This document shows, piece by piece, positions 7,081-55,405 of a stretch of 56,121 bases of DNA. A program made the translations under genes and the position numbers. The notes below the pieces were generated by a model. The model was not told where the DNA came from and did no database searches. It saw nothing but the letters and a program-made list of their open reading frames with translations. Each line of letters starts with the position of its first letter. The first letter of the stretch is position 1. The stretch is from Blastopirellula marina (GTDB taxonomy: Bacteria; Planctomycetota; Planctomycetia; Pirellulales; Thermoguttaceae). The stretch covers positions 1 through 56,121 of the forward strand of contig DYLS01000013.1 in the NCBI GenBank assembly GCA_020721965.1, given 5' to 3'.

Positions 7081-9594
7081 ATGGCGGAGTTTACACGTCG
7101 AGAAGACCGTCTGCCTACGTTTCATCGACGCCGGTTGTTTGGTGCTCGGAAGATATGGCAGCTCCCAGTATTCGCCTCGACATTATGGCTAGGAATGGTG
7201 TCTGGCATGCTGGGATTCAGCGATGAAGGGGGTGTCGCGCCCCCGGCCTGGAAGCCTGGCCCGCTGCTTGGCGAAATGCTCGCCGGTCCCTTGGCGCAGG
7301 TGGAAGAGATCGTCTTCGCCGTGCGAGTGCCGGGTCGGGATCACTGGTACGTTACGTTCGGCAATTACTCGGACCACTCTGAATACCCGCAGAAATTGGG
7401 CTTCAAGTTCGAAGAGGATGTGTATTGGGGCTATGGTGAAGGCGGTCGTTTGTGTGCCCTGAACCTGCGTACCGGCAAACTACGTGTATTGTTGGACGAT
7501 CCTCGCGGCGGGGTTCGTGATCCGCAAGTCCATTACGACGGGAAAAAGATACTCTTTTCGTACCGCAAAGGCGGTGAGCACCCCTTTCATTTGTATGAAA
7601 TCAATATCGACGGCACCGGCTTGCGACAACTCACGGATGGTCCGGACGACGATATCGAGCCGACGTATTGCCCGGATGGAAGCATCATCTTTTGCTCCTC
7701 GCGCTGTCGCCGCTTTGTCAACTGCTGGTACACCCGGGTAGCCGTCCTCCACCGGTGCGATGCCGACGGCGGGAACATCCGGCCGATTTCGAGTAACAAT
7801 GACCATGACAATACCCCCTGGATCCTGCCGGACGGTCGCGTCCTGTACATGCGCTGGGAGTACGTGGATCGGAGCCAGGTGCATTTTCATCACCTTTGGA
7901 CTGCCAACCCAGACGGGACGTTTCAAACAGTGTTTTTCGGCAATATGTACGGCGGCGTGGCGATGTTGGATGCCAAGCCCATTCCCAATTCGAATCAAGT
8001 GGTCGTCTCGTGGTCGCCGGGACACGGTCGGCCGGAGCACTTGGGGCCAATCGCCGTCGTCGATCCCAGCTTGGGACCGGACCATCAGGCGGCCGTCAAG
8101 ATCATCAGCAAGGGAGGCGACTGGAAAGACCCCTATCCCGTTACGGAGGATTGCTTTTTGGTTGCCAGCCCGCGTGGGCTGCACGTCATGGATTCGCGGG
8201 GACGGAGCGAGTTGATTTACGAATTGCCGGAGAGCGATCGGGCGACCTTGCAGTGCCATGAACCTCGCCCGCTGGTGGCGAGACCCCGCGAACGCCTCAT
8301 CCCCTCCAGGGTGGACCTCTCGAAACCGACCGGGACGCTGGTGCTGGAAGACATCTACCGCGGGCGCAGCATGGAGGGCGTGGCTCGCGGTTCGATCAAG
8401 AAACTGTTGGTCTTGAAGCAACTTCCCAAACCGGTCAATTTTTCGGGCGGGATGGAGCCGCTCACGATCGGTGGTTCGTTTACGCTGGCGGAGATCGTAG
8501 GCGAAGTTCCCGTCGAGCCAGATGGGTCGGCCAGCTTCGAGGTGCCAGCCCTTCAATCCCTCTTCTTCGTGGCTTTGGATGAAAACGAGATCGCGGTCAA
8601 ACGCATGCATAGCTTCGTGTCGTTACAGCCTGGCGAACAGACGGGTTGCGTGGGCTGCCACGAGCCGCGGCATCATGCGCCGCACGCCGTCACCGATGTG
8701 ATGGCGTTGCGTCACCGCCCTTCGCAAATCCAGTCGATCGCGGATGTCCCCCCGGTTTTGGACTATCCGCGGGACATTCAGCCGATCCTCGACCGGCATT
8801 GCGTCGCTTGCCATAACCCCGACAAACGCGAGGGAAAGATCGACCTGACCGGCGATCATACGGCCGGGTACTCCATCAGCTATTGGACCATGGTCGTGCG
8901 GGGGCTGTTCTCCGACGGGCGGAATGAGCCGCGCGGCAATCGTCCGCCATATAGTTACGGGAGTGCTGCCAGCCGTTTGATGAAACTGGTGGACGGCAGC
9001 CATTACGGGGCCAAGCCTTCACCGCTGGAAGTCAAAACCGTTCGGCTCTGGATCGAAACCAGCGCCTGCTACCCCGGCACGTATGCCGCCTTGGGCTGCG
9101 GTTTTCATCCGGTCAATCTCCCGTGGGGCGAGATCGGCGCTCGGTGCGGGTCATGCCATGTGAAGGAAGTGCCGACCCCGGACGGCCCGCAGCGGCGCAT
9201 CGTCATGGACGGCGGTTGGCCGGGCGTTATCGAGCCGTTGATGAATCTCGATCGGCCCGAACAGTCCTATTTGCTCCGCGCGCCGTTGGCACGTTCTGCC
9301 GGGGGATTGGAGCTGTGCGGCGAGGCGGTTTTCCGCGACGCTAGCGACGCTCTATATCAGAAGGCGCTGGCCGCGATCACGGATGCCCACCGCAGGCTAC
9401 AGGAGGGCAAACGATTCGACATGCCAGGCTTTCGACCGAACCCACACTACATTCGGGAGATGCAGCGGTTCGGCTTCTTACCCCACGACCTCGCTCCGGA
9501 TACACCCATCGATCCGTATGCCGTGGATCGGGCGTACTGGGACTCCTTTATCTATCGAGCTGCAAAGTCAGGAGACTTGGTATCCGGCGAGTGA
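7081..9594 (+). CDS. Hydrazine synthase alpha-subunit-like protein with beta-propeller and three CxxCH motifs
   Basis: 837 residues. An N-terminal hydrophobic segment (about 24-46) suggests export. Residues about 60-400 form WD40-like/PD40 propeller blades (for example LRQLTDGPDDDIEPTYCPDG). The C-terminal half has three c-type haem motifs, CVGCH (523-527), CVACH (574-578) and CGSCH (689-693). This order resembles HzsA of anammox bacteria (about 800 residues), which works in a complex with HzsB and HzsC, but neither partner is visible here. I infer a periplasmic multihaem redox protein whose substrate is unknown. The ATG has a GGGAGA site upstream. Hydrazine synthesis should not be assumed. 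Confidence 0.8.
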   Translation: MAEFTRREDRLPTFHRRRLFGARKIWQLPVFASTLWLGMVSGMLGFSDEGGVAPPAWKPGPLLGEMLAGPLAQVEEIVFAVRVPGRDHWYVTFGNYSDHSEYPQKLGFKFEEDVYWGYGEGGRLCALNLRTGKLRVLLDDPRGGVRDPQVHYDGKKILFSYRKGGEHPFHLYEINIDGTGLRQLTDGPDDDIEPTYCPDGSIIFCSSRCRRFVNCWYTRVAVLHRCDADGGNIRPISSNNDHDNTPWILPDGRVLYMRWEYVDRSQVHFHHLWTANPDGTFQTVFFGNMYGGVAMLDAKPIPNSNQVVVSWSPGHGRPEHLGPIAVVDPSLGPDHQAAVKIISKGGDWKDPYPVTEDCFLVASPRGLHVMDSRGRSELIYELPESDRATLQCHEPRPLVARPRERLIPSRVDLSKPTGTLVLEDIYRGRSMEGVARGSIKKLLVLKQLPKPVNFSGGMEPLTIGGSFTLAEIVGEVPVEPDGSASFEVPALQSLFFVALDENEIAVKRMHSFVSLQPGEQTGCVGCHEPRHHAPHAVTDVMALRHRPSQIQSIADVPPVLDYPRDIQPILDRHCVACHNPDKREGKIDLTGDHTAGYSISYWTMVVRGLFSDGRNEPRGNRPPYSYGSAASRLMKLVDGSHYGAKPSPLEVKTVRLWIETSACYPGTYAALGCGFHPVNLPWGEIGARCGSCHVKEVPTPDGPQRRIVMDGGWPGVIEPLMNLDRPEQSYLLRAPLARSAGGLELCGEAVFRDASDALYQKALAAITDAHRRLQEGKRFDMPGFRPNPHYIREMQRFGFLPHDLAPDTPIDPYAVDRAYWDSFIYRAAKSGDLVSGE

Positions 9595-10119: not shown

Positions 10120-10309
10120 TTCTCCGCCAGGCGCGGCGTTCTCCGCTACGAGTGGCGTTCTCCGGCAGGAGCGGGGTTCTGCGCCGTGAGCGGCGCTCTC
10201 CGCTAGGAGCTGCGTTCTCCGTTGGAATTGGCGTTCGCTGGCAGGAGTGGGGGGCTGCGCAGGGACCGGCGCTCTCCGCTAGGAGTGGCCTTCTCCGCTA
10301 GGAGCTGCG
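10120..10309 (+). repeat. Minisatellite: ten 19-bp units in exact register
   Basis: Ten units of 19 bp run without any change of phase. The consensus is TTCTCCGCTAGGAGTGGCG. Several units are near-identical (10139, 10196, 10272, 10291) and others are degenerate. The unit core CTCCGCTAGGAG is close to palindromic. The array ends 30 bases before a good promoter for the PilM operon. Confidence 0.85.
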
Positions 10310-10672: not shown

Positions 10673-13513
10673 ATGGCGAAACAGGAAACCGCGTGGGGCA
10701 TCGATGTCGGCAATGCGTCGCTGAAGGCCATTCGTCTTCGTCCGACCGAAACGCCCAACATCGTGCAGGCGGACGCGTTCGATTACATCGAATACCCGAT
10801 GTTGTTGACGCAACCGTCAGCGGACCCTCCCAGTTTGATCGAGACGGCGATCAAGCAGTTTCTATCCCGCAACGATGTGCGCGGGAGCAGGGTGGCGATC
10901 TCGGTTTCCGGGGCCACGGGCCTGGCTCGTTTCATCAAGCTTCCGCCCGTCGAGCTGAGCAAGTTGGTGGATGTTGTCCGATTCGAGGCCAAACAACAGA
11001 TTCCCTACGACCTCGACAGCGTGGTTTGGCGCTACCAGCGGATGGACGTGGGAGATGAGGAAAGCAGCTTTGCGCTGGGTTCCACGATTGGTTTGTTCGC
11101 GCTGAAGCGGAACCAGATCGAGGCGGCCCTGGAGGCGTTCCAGAAGCTGGGGATCGAGGTGGATATCATTCAACTCAGCCCGCTGGCCCTGTTCAATTAT
11201 GCCCGTTTCGACGCGATGGACGACATGCCGTCGCCGGATGACTACGACCCGGACAATCCGCCGCCATCGATTTGCATCTTGTCCATGGGAACGGACAGCT
11301 CGGACCTGGTGATCACCAACGGCTATCGTGTTTGGCAGCGGAACATCCCGCTGGGCGGGAGCCATTTCACCAAGGCCTTGAGCAAGGAATTGAAGCTGAC
11401 CTTCTCGAAGGCCGAGCACCTCAAGAAGAACCCCAGCACTCATCCCGACTCGAAGGCTGTCTTTCAGGCGATGAGGCCGGTTTTCTCGGAGTTGCTGTCG
11501 GAGTTGCAGCGTTCCATCAGTTATTACAGCAGCATCGAGCGGTCGGCCGAGATCACCCGTGGTATCGCCCTGGGAAACCCGTTGAAGCTGCCCGGTCTTC
11601 GCGGTTACATCGAAAAGGGCTTGGGTTTTCCAATCGAGCGTGTCGAAGCGTTCACGCACTTGATGGGTAACGAGGTCCTCGACGCGGCGAGCTTTCGCGA
11701 GAATCTGTCGTGTTTTGGCCTGGTATATGGGCTGGCGCTGCAAGGCATCGGTCGGGCATACATGAAGATCAATATGTTGCCCGACGAAGTGGTCAAGGAC
11801 CGCTTCATCCGTGCCAAGAAGCCCTGGGCGTTGGCGGCGGCTGCGACGTTGCTGCTCGGTTGCACGGTCAGTTTTGCGGCCTCGTCGCTGGCGCTCAGCG
11901 GCGTCTCGCCGGCGCGATTCGGGTCGGCGGAGCAGCGTGCCAAACAGGTCGTCGATACGGCCAAGCGGTATCAGCAAGACCTGTCCTCGGTGGAGAGCGA
12001 ATTCGACCGGATCAAGGCCATCGGCGAGAACCTGACGGGCAACGTGGAAGGGCGATTGTTGTGGCTGGAACTGCTCACGGCGATCAATCAAGCCCTGCCG
12101 CAATACCGTGTGCAAGGCGACGCCGCGGCTGCCCAAGCGGCTTTGGAGGCTCAGGCCGCAGCGGAGCAGGACCCGGCGAAGCAGGCCGAGGCGCAGGCCA
12201 ACGCGGTAGAATCGCGAGACGAGATCCATATCAGCAGCTTGGATGCTTACTACCTCGACGATCTGGCCATGTGGTGGCAGCGGACCGGTGGTTGGTACAA
12301 GCCGGCCGCGGGAACGGAGGGAGCGACGGAAGCGGCGGAATCGGCAAGTAGTGCCACGGCGCCGCTGGCCCCGGCCGCCGCGACGACCGCTTCACCCATG
12401 GCCGGCGCGGCGGGATCGCCCTACGGGACGGCCTCTCCCTACGGCGCGGAAGGTTACGGAGGGGGGGAGTCGCCGTACGGCATGTCGAGCGGATTAGGTT
12501 ACGGGGCCGCCGCCGCGCCCCCGCCGCCACCCTCGGTACCTGGCCCAACCGGCGCAGGCTACGTGATTCGGCTGACCGGCTACCATCATCACAATAGCGA
12601 CAAGGCGAAAACGAATCAGGGCGCGGAATACGTCCGGAACACGTTAATCAAGGTTCTCGAAAACGGCCCGTTTCTCATCAACGGCGAGTGGTTGTCGTCC
12701 AAGGAGCTGGGGCTTGGTTTCCCCTGTTTGATCAATCCCGGCAAGATTCGAGTGGTGCGGGTAACGGACCCCAATTTCCGGCCCTCGACGTTGGTGCCGG
12801 GGACCGGGGCGACGGGGGTGACAGGGGCGGCGGGCATCCCCACTGGCTCCTTGATTCCCGGCGGATCAGCCGGAGCAATGGGCACGGGGACCGGGACGCA
12901 AGACGCAACCATTCCTGGTGTGTTGGAATTGAGACGATTTGATTTCGTGATCGAGCTTTGTTGGCAGCCGAAGACGGAATCGGAACGGAAGAAGGAGCGG
13001 GAAGAGGCGATGCGAAAGGCGAGCGAGGAGGGCACGCAGGGTCAGCCTGCTGGTGCTGGATCCGAAGGGGCTGCGCCGGGGCCAGTGTCGGGCAGCGGGG
13101 CGGGAGCTGGCCCGGGCGGCGCCGGTGCCCCACCCGCGACAGGGACAACGGCTGCCCCCAGCGCCCCGGGAACGCCTCCCAATCCGGCGGCCATGCCGCC
13201 AGCCGCAGTACCACCTACGGCCGCGCCGCCTACAGGGGTACCACCTACGGGTGGGGTACCTCAGCCACCTCCAGGAGGGAATCCGGGCGTTCCGCCGACC
13301 GGCGCCCCTGGTGCCGTGCCACCGATGCCGTCGCCGCCGGCTGGGCAGCCTGGCGGGGGAACACCGCAGGTGCCCCCGGCCCAGGTGCCGCCTGCCGCGG
13401 TGGCGCCAGCCGATGCGGCGAACTTGCCGGATGCCCCCGTTGCCCCGGCAGGTGGGCAGAACGCTCCCCCGCCAGCGAACGGAGGGAATGGCGATCCGCC
13501 GCCGCAGTCCTGA
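10673..13513 (+). CDS. pilM: PilM-PilN fusion protein with low-complexity tail
   Basis: 946 residues. Residues 1-365 are a PilM/FtsA-type actin-like ATPase fold, starting AWGIDVGNASLKAIRL. Next comes KINMLPDEVVKDR (365-377), which resembles the INLLP peptide by which PilN docks on PilM, then a membrane segment (384-409) and a periplasmic coiled region as in PilN. From about 583 the chain is Tyr/Gly/Ser-rich (SPYG repeats). It then has a folded-looking piece (about 625-780) and ends in a long Pro/Gly/Ala-rich tail. PilM and PilN are separate proteins in well-known type IV pilus systems. It probably forms the inner-membrane platform of a pilus or type II secretion machine with the next two genes. 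GGTGAACAGGTC precedes the ATG. Confidence 0.85.
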   Translation: MAKQETAWGIDVGNASLKAIRLRPTETPNIVQADAFDYIEYPMLLTQPSADPPSLIETAIKQFLSRNDVRGSRVAISVSGATGLARFIKLPPVELSKLVDVVRFEAKQQIPYDLDSVVWRYQRMDVGDEESSFALGSTIGLFALKRNQIEAALEAFQKLGIEVDIIQLSPLALFNYARFDAMDDMPSPDDYDPDNPPPSICILSMGTDSSDLVITNGYRVWQRNIPLGGSHFTKALSKELKLTFSKAEHLKKNPSTHPDSKAVFQAMRPVFSELLSELQRSISYYSSIERSAEITRGIALGNPLKLPGLRGYIEKGLGFPIERVEAFTHLMGNEVLDAASFRENLSCFGLVYGLALQGIGRAYMKINMLPDEVVKDRFIRAKKPWALAAAATLLLGCTVSFAASSLALSGVSPARFGSAEQRAKQVVDTAKRYQQDLSSVESEFDRIKAIGENLTGNVEGRLLWLELLTAINQALPQYRVQGDAAAAQAALEAQAAAEQDPAKQAEAQANAVESRDEIHISSLDAYYLDDLAMWWQRTGGWYKPAAGTEGATEAAESASSATAPLAPAAATTASPMAGAAGSPYGTASPYGAEGYGGGESPYGMSSGLGYGAAAAPPPPPSVPGPTGAGYVIRLTGYHHHNSDKAKTNQGAEYVRNTLIKVLENGPFLINGEWLSSKELGLGFPCLINPGKIRVVRVTDPNFRPSTLVPGTGATGVTGAAGIPTGSLIPGGSAGAMGTGTGTQDATIPGVLELRRFDFVIELCWQPKTESERKKEREEAMRKASEEGTQGQPAGAGSEGAAPGPVSGSGAGAGPGGAGAPPATGTTAAPSAPGTPPNPAAMPPAAVPPTAAPPTGVPPTGGVPQPPPGGNPGVPPTGAPGAVPPMPSPPAGQPGGGTPQVPPAQVPPAAVAPADAANLPDAPVAPAGGQNAPPPANGGNGDPPPQS

Positions 13514-13622
13514 AATCGAGCCGACAATCCTGAACCCGAACCGGTGTTCAGACATGGTATCGCGAATGGTAAACGCCCGCTCGGGGCGGAAAGGTTGGAT
13601 CCTCCAATTGAGGAAATAAGTC

Positions 13623-15674
13623 ATGGATCAACTCAAGCAGATCCTTGCCGCAGTCTATAAGCACTTGTTTTGGGTCGTGTGCAGCTTGTCTATAGTGGTT
13701 GGGCTTTCCGTTTGGTTTGTGGCCCAGGCCTCTGTCAGCAAGAGCATCGAAGCCCGAAAATCTGAGTTGGAGGGGCTTCGTTCGCAGCTCGGCCAGATTC
13801 GAGTGGGTTCGCCCAATCCGCAAGTTGTGGATGCAACGCGGGGCAAGATCGACGAGTTGCGGAACGATGTGTACCAGGCCTGGGTTGCCATGTACGCGGC
13901 CCAGAAAGAAAAGAACAAGTGGCCTCAGGCATTGGGGCCAGAGTTTTTGGCCTGGGTGGAGTCGCCCGGCCGCAAGCCCGGTGACCCGATTCCAGATCAG
14001 TTTCGGGAAATCTATCTGAACTTCATCGAGCAGCACTTTCCCACGCTGTTCGAGATCGTGGATCTACGTCGTCCGAAAGACGCCGACCTGCGAAAATTGG
14101 GTAGTCTGCGAAGCGGCACGCAAGGCATGGGCATGGGGGGCTATCCCGGCATGGCTGGCGGTGGGTACGAGGGCGAAGGCTACGGCGGCTATGCGGGGGC
14201 AGGCGCGCTGGGGACGGGCGTTGGCGCTGCCTACGGTGGGGCAGCGACGGCCCCCCAGGTCGAGATGGTCGGTACCGTCGATTGGAATCCGCAAAGCATT
14301 GCCCAATTGAAATCCCGATTCAATTGGATTCGCGTGCCTACCTCGGATGAAATCTGGAACGCGCAAGAGGACCTTTGGGTCTACGAGGCCCTGCTGCGGG
14401 TCATTCGCAAGACGAATGAAGGGGCGACCGGCCAGCACAACGCCATTGTGAAACGCATCGACGCCCTCGAGATCGGCCCGGACGCTGCACGCGGCTTTGG
14501 CGGCGCGCGACGTAGCCTTGCCGCCGGGGCAATAGGCTCGGGCGGAGCGATGGGGTCAGGGGGCGCGATGGGTTCCGGCGCGATGGGTTCCGGGTCCCCT
14601 ATGGGATCGGGAGCGGGCTACCCCGGTGGATCGATGGGCGAGCCGGAGAGCGAGTACGGAGCCAGCTACGGAGCCGGCTACGGAGCCGAGCTTGGCGGGA
14701 TGATGGGCGGCGGCCGGAGCCAGTACGGAAGATATGTCGATGCCAACGGAAATCCCTTGCCTCCTTCAGCGACACAACCCTTCGCGGAATTCAAAATGAT
14801 GCCCGTCCGCATGCGCTTGACGGTCGATCAACGCAAGCTCGACAAATTGCTCGTCAACTGTGCCAATTCAGATATGCCCATCAAGATTGTCCGTGTGCTG
14901 ATTCGACCCGGCCAAGGGACGCAAACTGGCGGAGGAATGGGCGGAATGGGTGGAATGGGCGGTGTATCCCCCTTGGGCGTGGGCGGCGGCTCGGATTACG
15001 GCAGCGAGGGGGGCGGTTATGGCACGGCGGGTGGCTACGGGGAGGAGTACGCGGGTGGATATGGCGAAAGCCCTTATGGCACGGGAGTATCTGGAGCGAT
15101 CGGGGCGGGAACGACCCAAGGCAAATCCAGCGGCAACGAGGTCCCGGTAATGATTGAAGGGGTTATCTACATCTTCAATCCGCCGGACTTTAACATGCTG
15201 GGGAAGGAAGGCGGCAAGGAGCTAGTATCGGGTCAGTCCCTGGCGCCGCCAGAGACGGCACCGGCGGAGAATGCGGGTGAACAACCGGCCAATGCCCCGG
15301 CAGGAGAGGGACAGGGGCCTAACGCCACACCAGCGCAACCGGGTGGAACCGGCCCGGGCGCGGCTGCTCCGCCATCGCCCGCTCCCGGGACGCCGCCAGG
15401 CAGTGTTCCATCGGCTGCACCAGTGGGAGCACCAGCAGCCGCGCCGCCCGCGGGGCCTGCACCTGGGGTCGCACCACCTCAAGCGGGGCCGCCTGCCGCG
15501 CCCCCTACGTCACCTCCTGCGGGACCTCCTGCGACACCACCTGCCGCGACTCCGCCCGGCGCGTCGCCAGCGGCAGGATCGCCAGCGGCTGCGGCGCCTA
15601 CGGCAGGTCCGGGCGCTGGACCTGCTGCACTACCGCCAGGCGCAGCTCCGCCACAGCCGGCAAATCAGCCGTAA
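13623..15674 (+). CDS. Membrane-anchored secretion/pilus platform protein with Gly/Tyr-rich segments (PilO-like position)
   Basis: 683 residues, starting 109 bases after the PilM-PilN gene. One N-terminal membrane segment (about 15-36) is followed by a coiled region (37-70), the layout of PilO-type proteins, but sequence similarity to PilO is not evident to me. Gly/Met/Tyr-rich tracts at about 168-206, 300-365 (repeats of MGSG and YGA) and 436-492 (EYGGYG-like) separate more ordered parts. The last 140 residues are Pro/Ala-rich. The bulk is predicted to be periplasmic. I infer a role in the same envelope complex from operon position and architecture. Confidence 0.7.
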   Translation: MDQLKQILAAVYKHLFWVVCSLSIVVGLSVWFVAQASVSKSIEARKSELEGLRSQLGQIRVGSPNPQVVDATRGKIDELRNDVYQAWVAMYAAQKEKNKWPQALGPEFLAWVESPGRKPGDPIPDQFREIYLNFIEQHFPTLFEIVDLRRPKDADLRKLGSLRSGTQGMGMGGYPGMAGGGYEGEGYGGYAGAGALGTGVGAAYGGAATAPQVEMVGTVDWNPQSIAQLKSRFNWIRVPTSDEIWNAQEDLWVYEALLRVIRKTNEGATGQHNAIVKRIDALEIGPDAARGFGGARRSLAAGAIGSGGAMGSGGAMGSGAMGSGSPMGSGAGYPGGSMGEPESEYGASYGAGYGAELGGMMGGGRSQYGRYVDANGNPLPPSATQPFAEFKMMPVRMRLTVDQRKLDKLLVNCANSDMPIKIVRVLIRPGQGTQTGGGMGGMGGMGGVSPLGVGGGSDYGSEGGGYGTAGGYGEEYAGGYGESPYGTGVSGAIGAGTTQGKSSGNEVPVMIEGVIYIFNPPDFNMLGKEGGKELVSGQSLAPPETAPAENAGEQPANAPAGEGQGPNATPAQPGGTGPGAAAPPSPAPGTPPGSVPSAAPVGAPAAAPPAGPAPGVAPPQAGPPAAPPTSPPAGPPATPPAATPPGASPAAGSPAAAAPTAGPGAGPAALPPGAAPPQPANQP

Positions 15675-15937
15675 AGCATGGGTAGAATCCATAATTTGAT
15701 TGAGGAGAGGCAGCGCGGCGTCGGGGATACTTGACCGCAAGGCAACGGGATCGCCGGACGCACGGAGGGTTGAGATTTTTCAGCGGGCAAGGCGTTTCGC
15801 CGAGCTTGCATCGTGATGGTTCGGAGGGAAGGACCTCGGCTTCGGCCTGCTGCTGAGCGAGGCCGCTCCCGAGGTTGCGTGAGGTCGAAAATCATAGGCG
15901 TAGGCCGAAAAACTGGGATTCGTGCGAGGAATGAGCC

Positions 15938-18538
15938 ATGGCCGTAACCAAAGGCAAGGGTGTTCAGGGCCTCTTGGCGGATAACTGGGAAAAGATCGTC
16001 TTGGCCGTGGTCGTTCTGCTGGCCTTGGGGCTGGTAGGCCTGTCGGTCACTCGCACCAAGGGGGTGGATCTGACTCCGGAGCAGTTGGTCACATTGGCCT
16101 CTCAAGCGGAGCAGAATTATCAGGGGACGGAGCCGACACCGACGCGGGATGTGGTGGGCTACTCGGCGATCGCCGCCCGAATCAAGGAGTCGGTTTCCTC
16201 GACGGGCTACCAACTGGTGGCGCCATTCGATCCGCCGCTGTTTGCCCAGCTCGAAAAGCGAGGTCAGCCGGAGATCTTTCGGGTCCGCGATTTGAGGGCT
16301 AGTGCGGGGCACGGGGCGGTGGCGGGTGCCGATCCTAACTCCCGGCCTACCACCGCCGGCGGCCATCCCGGAGCCGTAGGCCCGTCGGGCTATGGTCCCA
16401 CGGGGCCTGTCGGCGCACCCCCCATGCCGATCAGCACGGGCGAAAGCCCCTATAGCTCGGAATACGGCAGTGAATACGCATCCGCTGGTGAATCGGCTTA
16501 TGGCATGGCTGGTTATGGGGGATACTCCGGGGGCGTCACTCACGGCCGACGCTGGGTTGTCGTTACGGGCCTGATCGACTGGGAAAAGCAGGTTCAGGCC
16601 TTCCGTGACGTATTTCAGAACGCGGTTCGCGTGCCGGGCGTGGCGGGTGGGGCGTCCTCCACGATGGGCTATGGAGCCGCCATGCCCACGGGCTATCCCG
16701 GCGGCGGGTACGGAAGCGAGTACGAAAGCGAAGGTGCCGGTTATCCCGGCGGATCGGGGTATCCTGGCTATGGTACGGGCATGGCAGGATATGGCACCTC
16801 CTCCACGGCCGTCGGGGAACGGCCACAGTACGTTTATTACAACATCGAGCGGGCTGAGGTGAGCGATGACGATCAGGCCGTCGATGCCCTTAAGTGGGAG
16901 GCGATCAATGCCCGAGTCCGTTGGGCCGAGGCCGTTCGGATGCAGCGCGATCCTTTCAACTACGTCAATCCAGAGTATGTGATGTCGCCCGGCCAGGTTC
17001 CTTTGACGTGGCCCCTGGCGCAGCTTGCCGCGGGCGATACCTGGGGGCCGGAGGTCGCGCACGACCCCGATATCCCCTTCGTAGAGCGGCCACGAACCGG
17101 CATGGGCGGCATGTACGGCGGCTATGGCGGCTATGAGATGTACGGTGGCGGCATGATGGGGCCGGGCGGCCCAATGGGGTCGGGCGGTCCCATGCCCACG
17201 ATGCTGCCTCAGCAGCCGACCGCTCCAGGTGCTGCCGGTCCGGGGCAACCTGGGATGGCTCCGCAGGCGCCTCAGCCCGAGGTCCCGGATGCCCCGATTG
17301 ATCCAACACAGATGCGGCCCGGCGCGCCCGGTATGATGCCGGGCTATGGCGCGGCGCCGTACGGGGCCCCGGGGCCGTATGGTACGCCGGGCTACATGGG
17401 CGAGGAGGCGGCCGGAGGGTATGGCTACGGATACGGTGCCCCCAGCGGGGCCTTACCCTTGCAGACTGTGATGAAGGAGGCCCCCTTCAAATTGTTCCGC
17501 TTCGTCGACTACCAAGTCGAACCGGGCAAAAAATATCGTTACCGCGTTCGCCTGTATTTGACAAATCCAAATTACCGGCTGCCAGCGCAATACTTGCAGG
17601 ATGAATCCTATGCTCGCGAAGCCTTTTTAATCACCCAATGGAGTGAGGCGAGCAATCTGGTTCGAGTTCCGGCGGATGTCAGCATCCTGGCCGGACCGGC
17701 GAAACCAGGCCGCATTCCCACCTCTGATCCCAAGGCGACGTTGGGCGTCACCGTATTTCAACCGGGGAGCGGCATCAAGAAGTTCCAGGAGTTCCCCGAT
17801 CTTATCCGTGGCACGGTAGTCGATTTTACCGCGGAGGAAGCCAAGAAGTTGGCGCCTCCCAAGAAGGAAACGAAGGAAACCGCAACAGCGGCGACGCCAT
17901 ATCCGTCTGAGGAGATGTACGGCGAGGGCTACGAAGGGGCCATGCCTGGCGGTGGTCGGCGACGCGGCCGAACGCCCGGCGGTTCCGCAGCCGGGTCGTC
18001 GCCGGAGTCCATCGTGGGATCCGATTCCATGATGCCCCCAGGTTTTGGAGGAGAAAGTCCTTATGGGGGAATGGGTTATGGCCCGACCGGCTTGGCCGCC
18101 GACAAGCCGAAACCGGAACTGGATTTCTTTTCGCGGATGATGATTTTGGACATTTCAGGCGGCGAGACCTTGCCGACCAAAGATACCTTCCCGGCATCCG
18201 TCGTGCTCTTGGATCCGGAGGGAAACCTCATCGTGCGGGATGAGATCGCGGATGAAACCGAGTTCAAGCGTTTCTCGGAACCGCAGACGCCGTTCGGCGG
18301 GATGTACGGGACGTCGATGGGTCCCGGCGGCTACGAAAGTGAGTATAGTAGCGAGTACCAATCGTATATGTCCGAGGAGGCAGCGGGCGGCAGAACCTCC
18401 GGCAGGAATACCCGGGGGACCAGGGGAACGCGGGGGTCCCGGACATCACAGCCTCCGGGGGTATATCCAGGTGCGTCGGGCCCGCCACCGGGCTATCCTG
18501 GAACGGCCCCTGCCCGCGGCGGTCGCCGAGGCTCTTGA
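15938..18538 (+). CDS. Membrane-anchored protein with Gly/Tyr-rich segments, third gene of the PilM operon
   Basis: 866 residues. A short cytoplasmic start, one membrane segment (about 22-42) and a large periplasmic part. Gly/Tyr/Ser-rich tracts occur at about 167-195, 243-286, 388-420, 467-505 and 786-818, with SEYGSEY and YGGYGG motifs. A more ordered region (about 505-680, with KYRYRVRLYLTNP) separates them, and the C-terminus is Arg/Gly/Thr-rich (RGTRGTRGSR). It shares this style with the two preceding genes and not with the rest of the window. CGAGGAATGAGCC precedes the ATG. No known family was recognised. Confidence 0.7.
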   Translation: MAVTKGKGVQGLLADNWEKIVLAVVVLLALGLVGLSVTRTKGVDLTPEQLVTLASQAEQNYQGTEPTPTRDVVGYSAIAARIKESVSSTGYQLVAPFDPPLFAQLEKRGQPEIFRVRDLRASAGHGAVAGADPNSRPTTAGGHPGAVGPSGYGPTGPVGAPPMPISTGESPYSSEYGSEYASAGESAYGMAGYGGYSGGVTHGRRWVVVTGLIDWEKQVQAFRDVFQNAVRVPGVAGGASSTMGYGAAMPTGYPGGGYGSEYESEGAGYPGGSGYPGYGTGMAGYGTSSTAVGERPQYVYYNIERAEVSDDDQAVDALKWEAINARVRWAEAVRMQRDPFNYVNPEYVMSPGQVPLTWPLAQLAAGDTWGPEVAHDPDIPFVERPRTGMGGMYGGYGGYEMYGGGMMGPGGPMGSGGPMPTMLPQQPTAPGAAGPGQPGMAPQAPQPEVPDAPIDPTQMRPGAPGMMPGYGAAPYGAPGPYGTPGYMGEEAAGGYGYGYGAPSGALPLQTVMKEAPFKLFRFVDYQVEPGKKYRYRVRLYLTNPNYRLPAQYLQDESYAREAFLITQWSEASNLVRVPADVSILAGPAKPGRIPTSDPKATLGVTVFQPGSGIKKFQEFPDLIRGTVVDFTAEEAKKLAPPKKETKETATAATPYPSEEMYGEGYEGAMPGGGRRRGRTPGGSAAGSSPESIVGSDSMMPPGFGGESPYGGMGYGPTGLAADKPKPELDFFSRMMILDISGGETLPTKDTFPASVVLLDPEGNLIVRDEIADETEFKRFSEPQTPFGGMYGTSMGPGGYESEYSSEYQSYMSEEAAGGRTSGRNTRGTRGTRGSRTSQPPGVYPGASGPPPGYPGTAPARGGRRGS

Positions 18539-40411: not shown

Positions 40412-40598
40412 GGTCATTTCGACGAGCGCCAGCAGTGTCATTTGGACGAGCGTAAGTAGTGTCATTTCGACCATTGCCAGCGAGGAGAAATCTTCACCCC
40501 TGTCGAGAAGATGTCTCGCTTCGCAAGATTTCTCGCTTCGCTCGAAATGACAAGGGGGCGGGCTGTTTGCAGTGGCGTGAACCCCTGTGAAGGACTAC
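40412..40598 (-). repeat. Dispersed repeat family C, copy 2 (inverted)
   Basis: On the minus strand it begins GTAGTCCTTCACAGGGGTTC and runs into TGTCATTTCGAGCGAAGCGA. At the other end a roughly 24-bp unit, GTCATTTCGACGAGCGCCAG, is repeated three times with variation. The left edge and palindrome match copies 1 and 3. Confidence 0.8.
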
Positions 40599-40605
40599 GC
40601 CTTGC

Positions 40606-40665
40606 TTTTTGAGAAGCAATGCCGTTTTTTGAGAAGCAGTCCCGTTTTTTCAGAAGTAATGCCGT
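40606..40665 (+). repeat. Tandem repeat, three 20-bp units
   Basis: Three 20-bp units of the form TTTTTGAGAAGCAATGCCGT, with 2-4 changes between units, follow immediately after repeat C copy 2. Confidence 0.75.
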
Positions 40666-40813
40666 CGCGAGCGATTGCCGTATCGACCGCGGTGTGGCAT
40701 GATACGGGTTCGACGGGGATTGCGGCGGGCTGCTTGACAGCGTTGCCGCACGCTTCCAGCTCAACCTCGCCTGCTGGGGCTCTGGCGCATCGCCGTTTGC
40801 GCGGCCCGGCATC

Positions 40814-40888
40814 TGGTTGTGGTGGGGCATGGCGCGGCTGATTGTCGTGGGGCATAACGCGGTTTGTTATGGTGGAGCGTAAGCCCGC
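40814..40888 (+). repeat. Tandem repeat, three 25-bp units
   Basis: Three units of 25 bp share the core GTGGGGCATAACGCGG with substitutions and no change of phase. Confidence 0.65.
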
Positions 40889-40945
40889 GTAACGTGCTTT
40901 TTGTGGGAACGCGTAGCGCCGCGTACATTATCGGTTCGCACGTCG

Positions 40946-40993
40946 TGGAATCGCGCGGACTTTGCAATATGGAATGACGCGGACTTTGCAATG
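40946..40993 (+). repeat. Tandem repeat, two 24-bp units
   Basis: Two adjacent 24-bp units, TGGAAT then CGCGGACTTTGCAAT, differ at only a few positions. The GCGGACTTTGC core is also the right end of family A. Confidence 0.7.
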
Positions 40994-55244: not shown

Positions 55245-55405
55245 CGTAGTCGTTCACAGGGGTTCTCGTCACTGCAAAACGGATCGCCCCCCTCTTGTCA
55301 TTTCGAGCGAAGCGGGAAATCTTTTGAAACGGGGACTCTTTGGAAACGGGAAATCTTTCGAAGCGGGCAGTCTTTTGAAACGGGGAGTCTTTCGAAGCCA
55401 GAAAG
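55245..55405 (+). repeat. Dispersed repeat family C, copy 3
   Basis: Begins CGTAGTCGTTCACAGGGGTT and continues CTCTTGTCATTTCGAGCGAA, matching copy 1. The right part is replaced by short tandem variants of GAAACGGGGAGTCTTTCGAA, repeated about five times up to the start of the methylase gene. Confidence 0.78.

Follow-up and report, generated by a model that had tools for sequence, protein, structure and literature searches.

Why would three adjacent envelope proteins of a heat-loving planctomycete each carry long tracts rich in glycine, tyrosine, and serine? The question arises in a 56,121-nucleotide stretch of Blastopirellula marina DNA (contig DYLS01000013.1), referred to here as the window, in which three collinear genes, all in one direction and designated P1, P2, and P3, encode such proteins (Table 1). 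The initial annotation likened the tracts to the prion-like [G/S]Y[G/S] domains of the FUS family and proposed that they form a shared assembly or condensate layer on the periplasmic side of one pilus or secretion machine. A literature search drawing mostly on open-access papers found no report that links type IV pilus parts with low-complexity or glycine-rich sequence or with phase separation.

Table 1. Genes and low-complexity features of the P1-P2-P3 operon (positions in the window; residues of the encoded protein)
Feature	Position	Strand	Residues	Description
P1	10673-13513	+	946 aa ORF	PilM_2 domain, TM helix, and PilN-like part, probably periplasmic
P1 low-complexity linker	12350-12538	+	about 560-622	SPYG, YGGG; delimited by orthologue alignment; 63 tract residues
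P1 C-terminal tail	13025-13510	+	785-946	Pro/Ala/Gly-rich
P2	13623-15674	+	683 aa ORF	Predicted Amuc_1100/PilO-fold protein; N-terminal TM at residues 15-33
P2 tract a	14115-14258	+	about 165-212	pLDDT <50 for 168-206
P2 tract b	14538-14708	+	about 306-362	MGSG repeats; pLDDT <50
P2 tract c	14904-15122	+	about 428-500	GSDYGSEGGGYG; pLDDT <50
P2 C-terminal tail	15225-15671	+	535-683	Pro/Ala-rich
P3	15938-18538	+	866 aa ORF	Possible Amuc_1099 counterpart (gene order, weak NCBIfam match); N-terminal TM at residues 20-38
P3 tract a	16331-16537	+	about 132-200	SEYGSEY and YGGY; pLDDT <50 for 141-197
P3 tract b	16631-16810	+	about 232-291	pLDDT <50; at least 20 aa in 7% of genomes, rare outside genus
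P3 tract c	17099-17467	+	about 388-510	YGGYGG and MGSG; pLDDT <50; at least 20 aa in 82% of genomes
P3 tract d	17870-18103	+	about 645-722	pLDDT <50; in 22% of genomes
P3 C-terminal tail	18296-18535	+	787-866	Tyr/Glu, then Arg/Gly-rich

The assignment to a known type of machine is strong for P1 and P2 and weak for P3. Residues 9 to 357 of P1 match PilM_2 (Pfam PF11104) at 85.4 bits, exceeding the gathering cutoff of 27 bits, and residues 44 to 481 match the family of the PilM-like protein Amuc_1101 (NCBIfam NF045709) at 204.9 bits (E = 2.6e-60), a score below the equivalog cutoff of 650 bits. Judged by these profiles, P1 is an Amuc_1101 homologue and not an equivalog. Its TM helix was placed at residues 386 to 404 by hydropathy, and what follows is called PilN-like from its position after the PilM domain and the helix. 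The predicted structure of P2 comprises a TM helix, a coiled coil, and an alpha/beta core. Foldseek matched this core to the Amuc_1100 structure 6lad (probability, 0.99; E = 0.02), and VIA-align ranked Amuc_1100 first (6lad: Z 10.4, 178 residues, root mean square deviation [rmsd] 7.5; 6laf: Z 9.9, rmsd 4.1) and Pseudomonas PilO second (Z 6.2), with unrelated matches at Z 5.2 or less. The modeled core of P2 thus appears to share the Amuc_1100/PilO-like fold. At the profile level, P2 of the window did not match the Amuc_1100 family (NCBIfam NF038287), and 2 of 14 orthologues did (best E = 0.0016); profiles of P2 and P3 likewise found nothing relevant in a sequence search of the PDB. Gene order and a weak match to the Amuc_1099 family (NCBIfam NF042425), which was confined to the N-terminal TM region and at 14.6 bits did not reach the cutoff of 50 bits, weakly suggest that P3 belongs to the same machine. 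A fold search with the whole of P3 returned solely fibronectin III-like matches at background level (best Z 8.2), so PilP and GspC are no more than possible relatives. By hydropathy, each of the three proteins has one hydrophobic helix; as the tracts lie C-terminal to it, they most likely reside in the periplasm, where the initial annotation had put them.

The order P1-P2-P3 is kept in the 68 nonredundant relatives that were analyzed with all three genes, and P3 is present in 54/60 relatives. In about 27 relatives, a large secretin gene lies directly downstream of P3; in the genome of the window, the homologue of that secretin is unlinked, on a different contig (C53; L093:8678-12946, 1,422 aa), and PilB/PilC/PilT-type motor genes also sit elsewhere. 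A PilM-type subunit, a PilO-like subunit, P3, and, in many relatives, a secretin agree with the earlier view that the proteins serve one machine. The operon looks like a planctomycete counterpart of the Akkermansia MUL2 locus (Amuc_1098 to Amuc_1102), given the adjacent genes for a PilM-type protein homologous to Amuc_1101, an Amuc_1100-fold protein, and a possible Amuc_1099 counterpart and, in many relatives, the adjacent secretin. A recent paper describes MUL2 as a type IV-like pilus that is conserved in Akkermansiaceae and serves attachment to glycans (PMC13174399). Unlike the MUL2 proteins, P1 additionally carries the PilN-like part and P2 is extended by long low-complexity inserts and by a tail, and the secretin is unlinked in the genome of the window. 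The type IVa PilM-PilN-PilO-PilP-PilQ system offers a second comparison: PilM, the PilO-like fold of P2, the secretin, and the PilB/PilC/PilT-type genes have counterparts there, whereas P1 joins PilM and the PilN-like part in one chain and the operon carries long Gly/Tyr/Met inserts inside folded cores. In the explanation favored below, the operon encodes inner-membrane and periplasmic components of a type IV pilus-related machine of the MUL2 kind (Amuc_1099 to Amuc_1101), with P1 as a PilM/PilN-type protein, P2 as an Amuc_1100/PilO-type protein, and P3 as their neighboring partner. In Thermogutta terrifontis, upregulation of pili IV genes on xanthan has been reported; for the operon studied here, a role in polysaccharide attachment or uptake is plausible.

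The surroundings of the operon hold other features. A tandem array of a 19-nt unit, TTCTCCGCCAGGAGCGGCG, with a 76-nt higher order occupies positions 10120 to 10309, about 360 bp upstream of P1, and further short arrays with units of 17 to 34 nt lie at 40413 to 40992 and 55308 to 55398. The region from 7081 to 9594 encodes an 837-aa protein with PD40 repeats and a match to the hydrazine synthase alpha middle domain (E = 1.8e-19); by kinship, the host is not an anammox organism.

The Gly/Tyr/Ser/Met tracts are weak in P1 and strong in P2 and P3. Under a criterion of 40-aa windows with at least 50% G+S+Y, at least 4 Y, and at least 8 G, P1, P2, and P3 contain 63, 206, and 311 tract residues, and the motif [GS]Y[GS] occurs 2, 6, and 14 times, respectively. 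The claim of Gly/Tyr/Ser-rich tracts in three neighboring proteins therefore stands, with a small share for P1, and the motifs quoted for it were found, including SEYG/YGGY in P2 in addition to those listed in Table 1. Aligned orthologues show the tracts as insertions that separate conserved blocks; in the structural models of P2 and P3, pLDDT drops below 50 in the tracts and is above 90 over much of the cores. The models thus depict disordered segments inserted into folded cores.

Such tracts are rare. Backgrounds were proteome samples with genes called by simple open reading frame selection. In the sample from the genome of the window (0.58 Mb, ∼12% of the genome; 396 called genes), one other gene passes the criterion, so the composition is not shared by many unrelated proteins. 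This gene encodes a secretin on contig C154, in a second GspE/GspF-type cluster (L092:12229-14487), with the stretch GGSMYGGAMYGGSMYG at residues 276 to 347, resembling the MGSG and Tyr tracts that P2 and P3 carry. It was considered as a further conserved tract carrier and set aside, as no close homologue was found in genomes of the same genus. In the nearest complete genome (G002, same genus; 416-kb sample, 304 genes), P2 and P3 alone pass. Across the 68 orthologous loci, 1 of 575 neighboring genes passes, versus 15 P2, 14 P3, and 3 P1 genes. Another chemistry behaves similarly: in genome G041 (operon at L049 6131-12417), all three operon proteins carry acidic-Tyr tracts such as EEYYEEEYYDE, and the 4 of 285 sampled genes with tracts of this kind are the three operon genes and L221:7233-9467. 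Tract enrichment in P1-P2-P3 is thus far beyond chance, and a genome-wide habit of low complexity is ruled out for the samples from these three genomes and the neighbors of the 68 loci.

What persists in relatives is the position of the disordered inserts; their chemistry, including the Tyr-rich type, does not. The P2 and P3 insert sites are common, apart from two P3 inserts that are rare outside the genus. Tract chemistry is specific to lineage: it is Gly-Tyr-Ser in Thermogutta and acidic-Tyr in G041, whereas many genomes use Gly-Met and others Pro-Ala. Tyr reaches at least 4% in both P2 and P3 in 15/62 genomes; the tree implies about 12 changes, repeated gains among them, which contradicts conservation of a FUS-like Tyr-rich chemistry. 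The tracts resemble FUS-family domains in their Gly/Tyr/Ser-rich disordered composition and in the RG-rich end of P3 (GRTSGRNTRGTRGTRGSR...GGRRGS); they differ in being predicted to be periplasmic, whereas FUS-family domains are cytosolic or nuclear. The Arg/Gly-rich end, although present in the window, has no conserved charge, with +3 or more in 27/68 orthologous tails and a negative value in 23/68. Within the window tracts, [GS]Y[GS] occurs 7 times compared to 4.0 in composition-preserving shuffles (p about 0.1); the signal is therefore composition and not a special motif order. The motif does exceed composition in some other genomes (e.g., 30 versus 9.7 in L162). FUS-style Tyr-Arg pairing was rejected, as Arg and Tyr do not correlate across genomes. 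The label "FUS-like" thus fits composition alone and otherwise overstates the likeness.

The variable chemistry itself follows a rule. Across about 60 genomes, the composition of the P2 internal tracts correlates with that of the P3 tracts (rho: Y, 0.74; G, 0.74; M, 0.77; P, 0.74), and this persists after removal of GC content and core composition (Y, 0.74; G, 0.57; M, 0.68; P, 0.52), which rules out either as the cause. With all P2 and P3 inserts, whose definitions depend on the alignment, the correlations are 0.67 (Y), 0.76 (G), 0.77 (M), and 0.80 (P), and independent contrasts on a tree built from the cores of the same operon give 0.77, 0.66, 0.66, and 0.60, respectively. The compositional distance between P2 and P3 is 0.258 within a genome's own pair, compared with 0.340 for the three nearest relatives and 0.386 for others. 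In 52/62 genomes, a genome's own P3 tracts are closer to its P2 tracts than are those of the three nearest relatives (p = 3e-8). The match also holds after thinning of close relatives (44/47), without the Tyr-rich genomes (31/39), and when G and P are ignored (50/60). The P1 linker tracks P2 and P3 weakly (26 to 30 of 41). This co-variation of P2 and P3 tracts, controlled for phylogeny, GC content, and core composition, is a new result.

Could the match arise from the DNA itself? Replication slippage might generate Gly-rich repeats that are tolerated in loops, with exchange between the genes equalizing them. Short tandem repeats do lie inside the tracts (e.g., at 14543 to 14615 and 14934 to 14962), and the two P3 inserts of narrow distribution would suit this account. 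However, a DNA repeat search of the window found no repeats common to the P2 and P3 tracts, and across genomes shared 15-mers are not above synonymous-codon shuffles except in overlapping open reading frame calls (L178 and L044) and in L152, which rules out gene conversion or repeat exchange between P2 and P3 as a general cause. The match moreover persists among distant genomes. Neutral expansion is accordingly a most improbable account of the match; exchange between genes is largely refuted, and slippage inside either gene would fit the rival accounts as well.

A second account invokes a selective or mutational condition common to a lineage (temperature, salt, or an export or translation bias) that shapes low-complexity regions in general, P2 and P3 being rich in them and not interacting. 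The C154 secretin, with similar GSMYGG repeats in another cluster of the same genome, is what such a condition would produce, and the Pro and Ala content shows a modest correlation with GC content. Yet the chemistry is common to very few other genes, and the P2-P3 signal survives correction for GC content and core composition. Other inserts also fail to follow: inserts in the secretin match neither P2 nor P3 (10 to 11 of 21), a control that is possibly poor since many of them may not be disordered, and the P2 tail does not follow the main P3 inserts in Gly and Met. These controls speak against a general periplasmic cause, and we judge this account unlikely.

The tracts might otherwise be entropic spacers, i.e., nonsticky, flexible linkers that give reach across a wide or variable periplasm. 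Their composition would then need only to be disordered and protease resistant, and P2 and P3 would resemble one another because they share one microenvironment. Several observations suit this idea: the tracts are modeled as disordered, their chemistry shifts between lineages without loss of the operon, P2 and P3 insert lengths co-vary (rho, 0.69) as reach predicts, and the planctomycete periplasm is enlarged (PMC5394234). Spacers need not match in residue identity, however, and Met, Tyr, and Gly do match between P2 and P3 beyond the nearest relatives; nor would spacers account for secretin inserts that do not match. Pure spacing remains a serious but doubtful candidate.

Taken together, the P2-P3 co-variation suggests that the two sets of tracts function together and is evidence in favor of a periplasmic layer of disordered loops that are matched between the two proteins, in which we infer contact; it could instead stem from a partner or a selective condition that both have in common. 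The layer put forward in the initial annotation survives in part: P2 and P3 behave in evolution as one compositional unit, as a layer predicts, while P1 is weakly involved. We favor, with a probability of about 0.5, a MUL2-like machine in which the loops of P2 and P3 form a cohesive, matched layer. Long disordered loops would extend into the periplasm, chiefly from the folded parts of P2 and P3 and to a smaller degree from P1, and the P2 and P3 loops would mingle in a common space surrounding the path of the pilus or secretin. There they would make weak many-to-many contacts, with Tyr, Met, and Gly as stickers in this organism and other residues elsewhere. The resulting layer would be flexible and mildly cohesive, holding the subunits to one another across the broad periplasm of planctomycetes, and the compositions of P2 and P3 would co-evolve because their loops must stay compatible. 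The periplasmic location, the physical contact, the cohesion, and the role in a pilus or in polysaccharide uptake are each inferred rather than observed elements of this explanation. A bolder form is put forward tentatively: subunits that work together in a trans-envelope machine would keep their disordered tracts miscible, making up a periplasmic low-complexity phase or condensate in which P2 and P3 are matched lineage by lineage.

What began as a resemblance to FUS can now be stated as a measured rule across about 60 genomes: the P2 and P3 inserts shift together, and other envelope inserts do not. Composition matching thereby offers a way to tell from sequence alone which disordered regions function jointly, and natural variants are at hand. 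If the tracts are indeed kept miscible, the operon would exemplify co-evolution at the level of composition and, around its pilus or polysaccharide-uptake machine, a condensate located in the periplasm. Planctomycete macromolecule-uptake and fiber machines are still uncharacterized (PMC5394234), and the finding may bear on how these bacteria build them.
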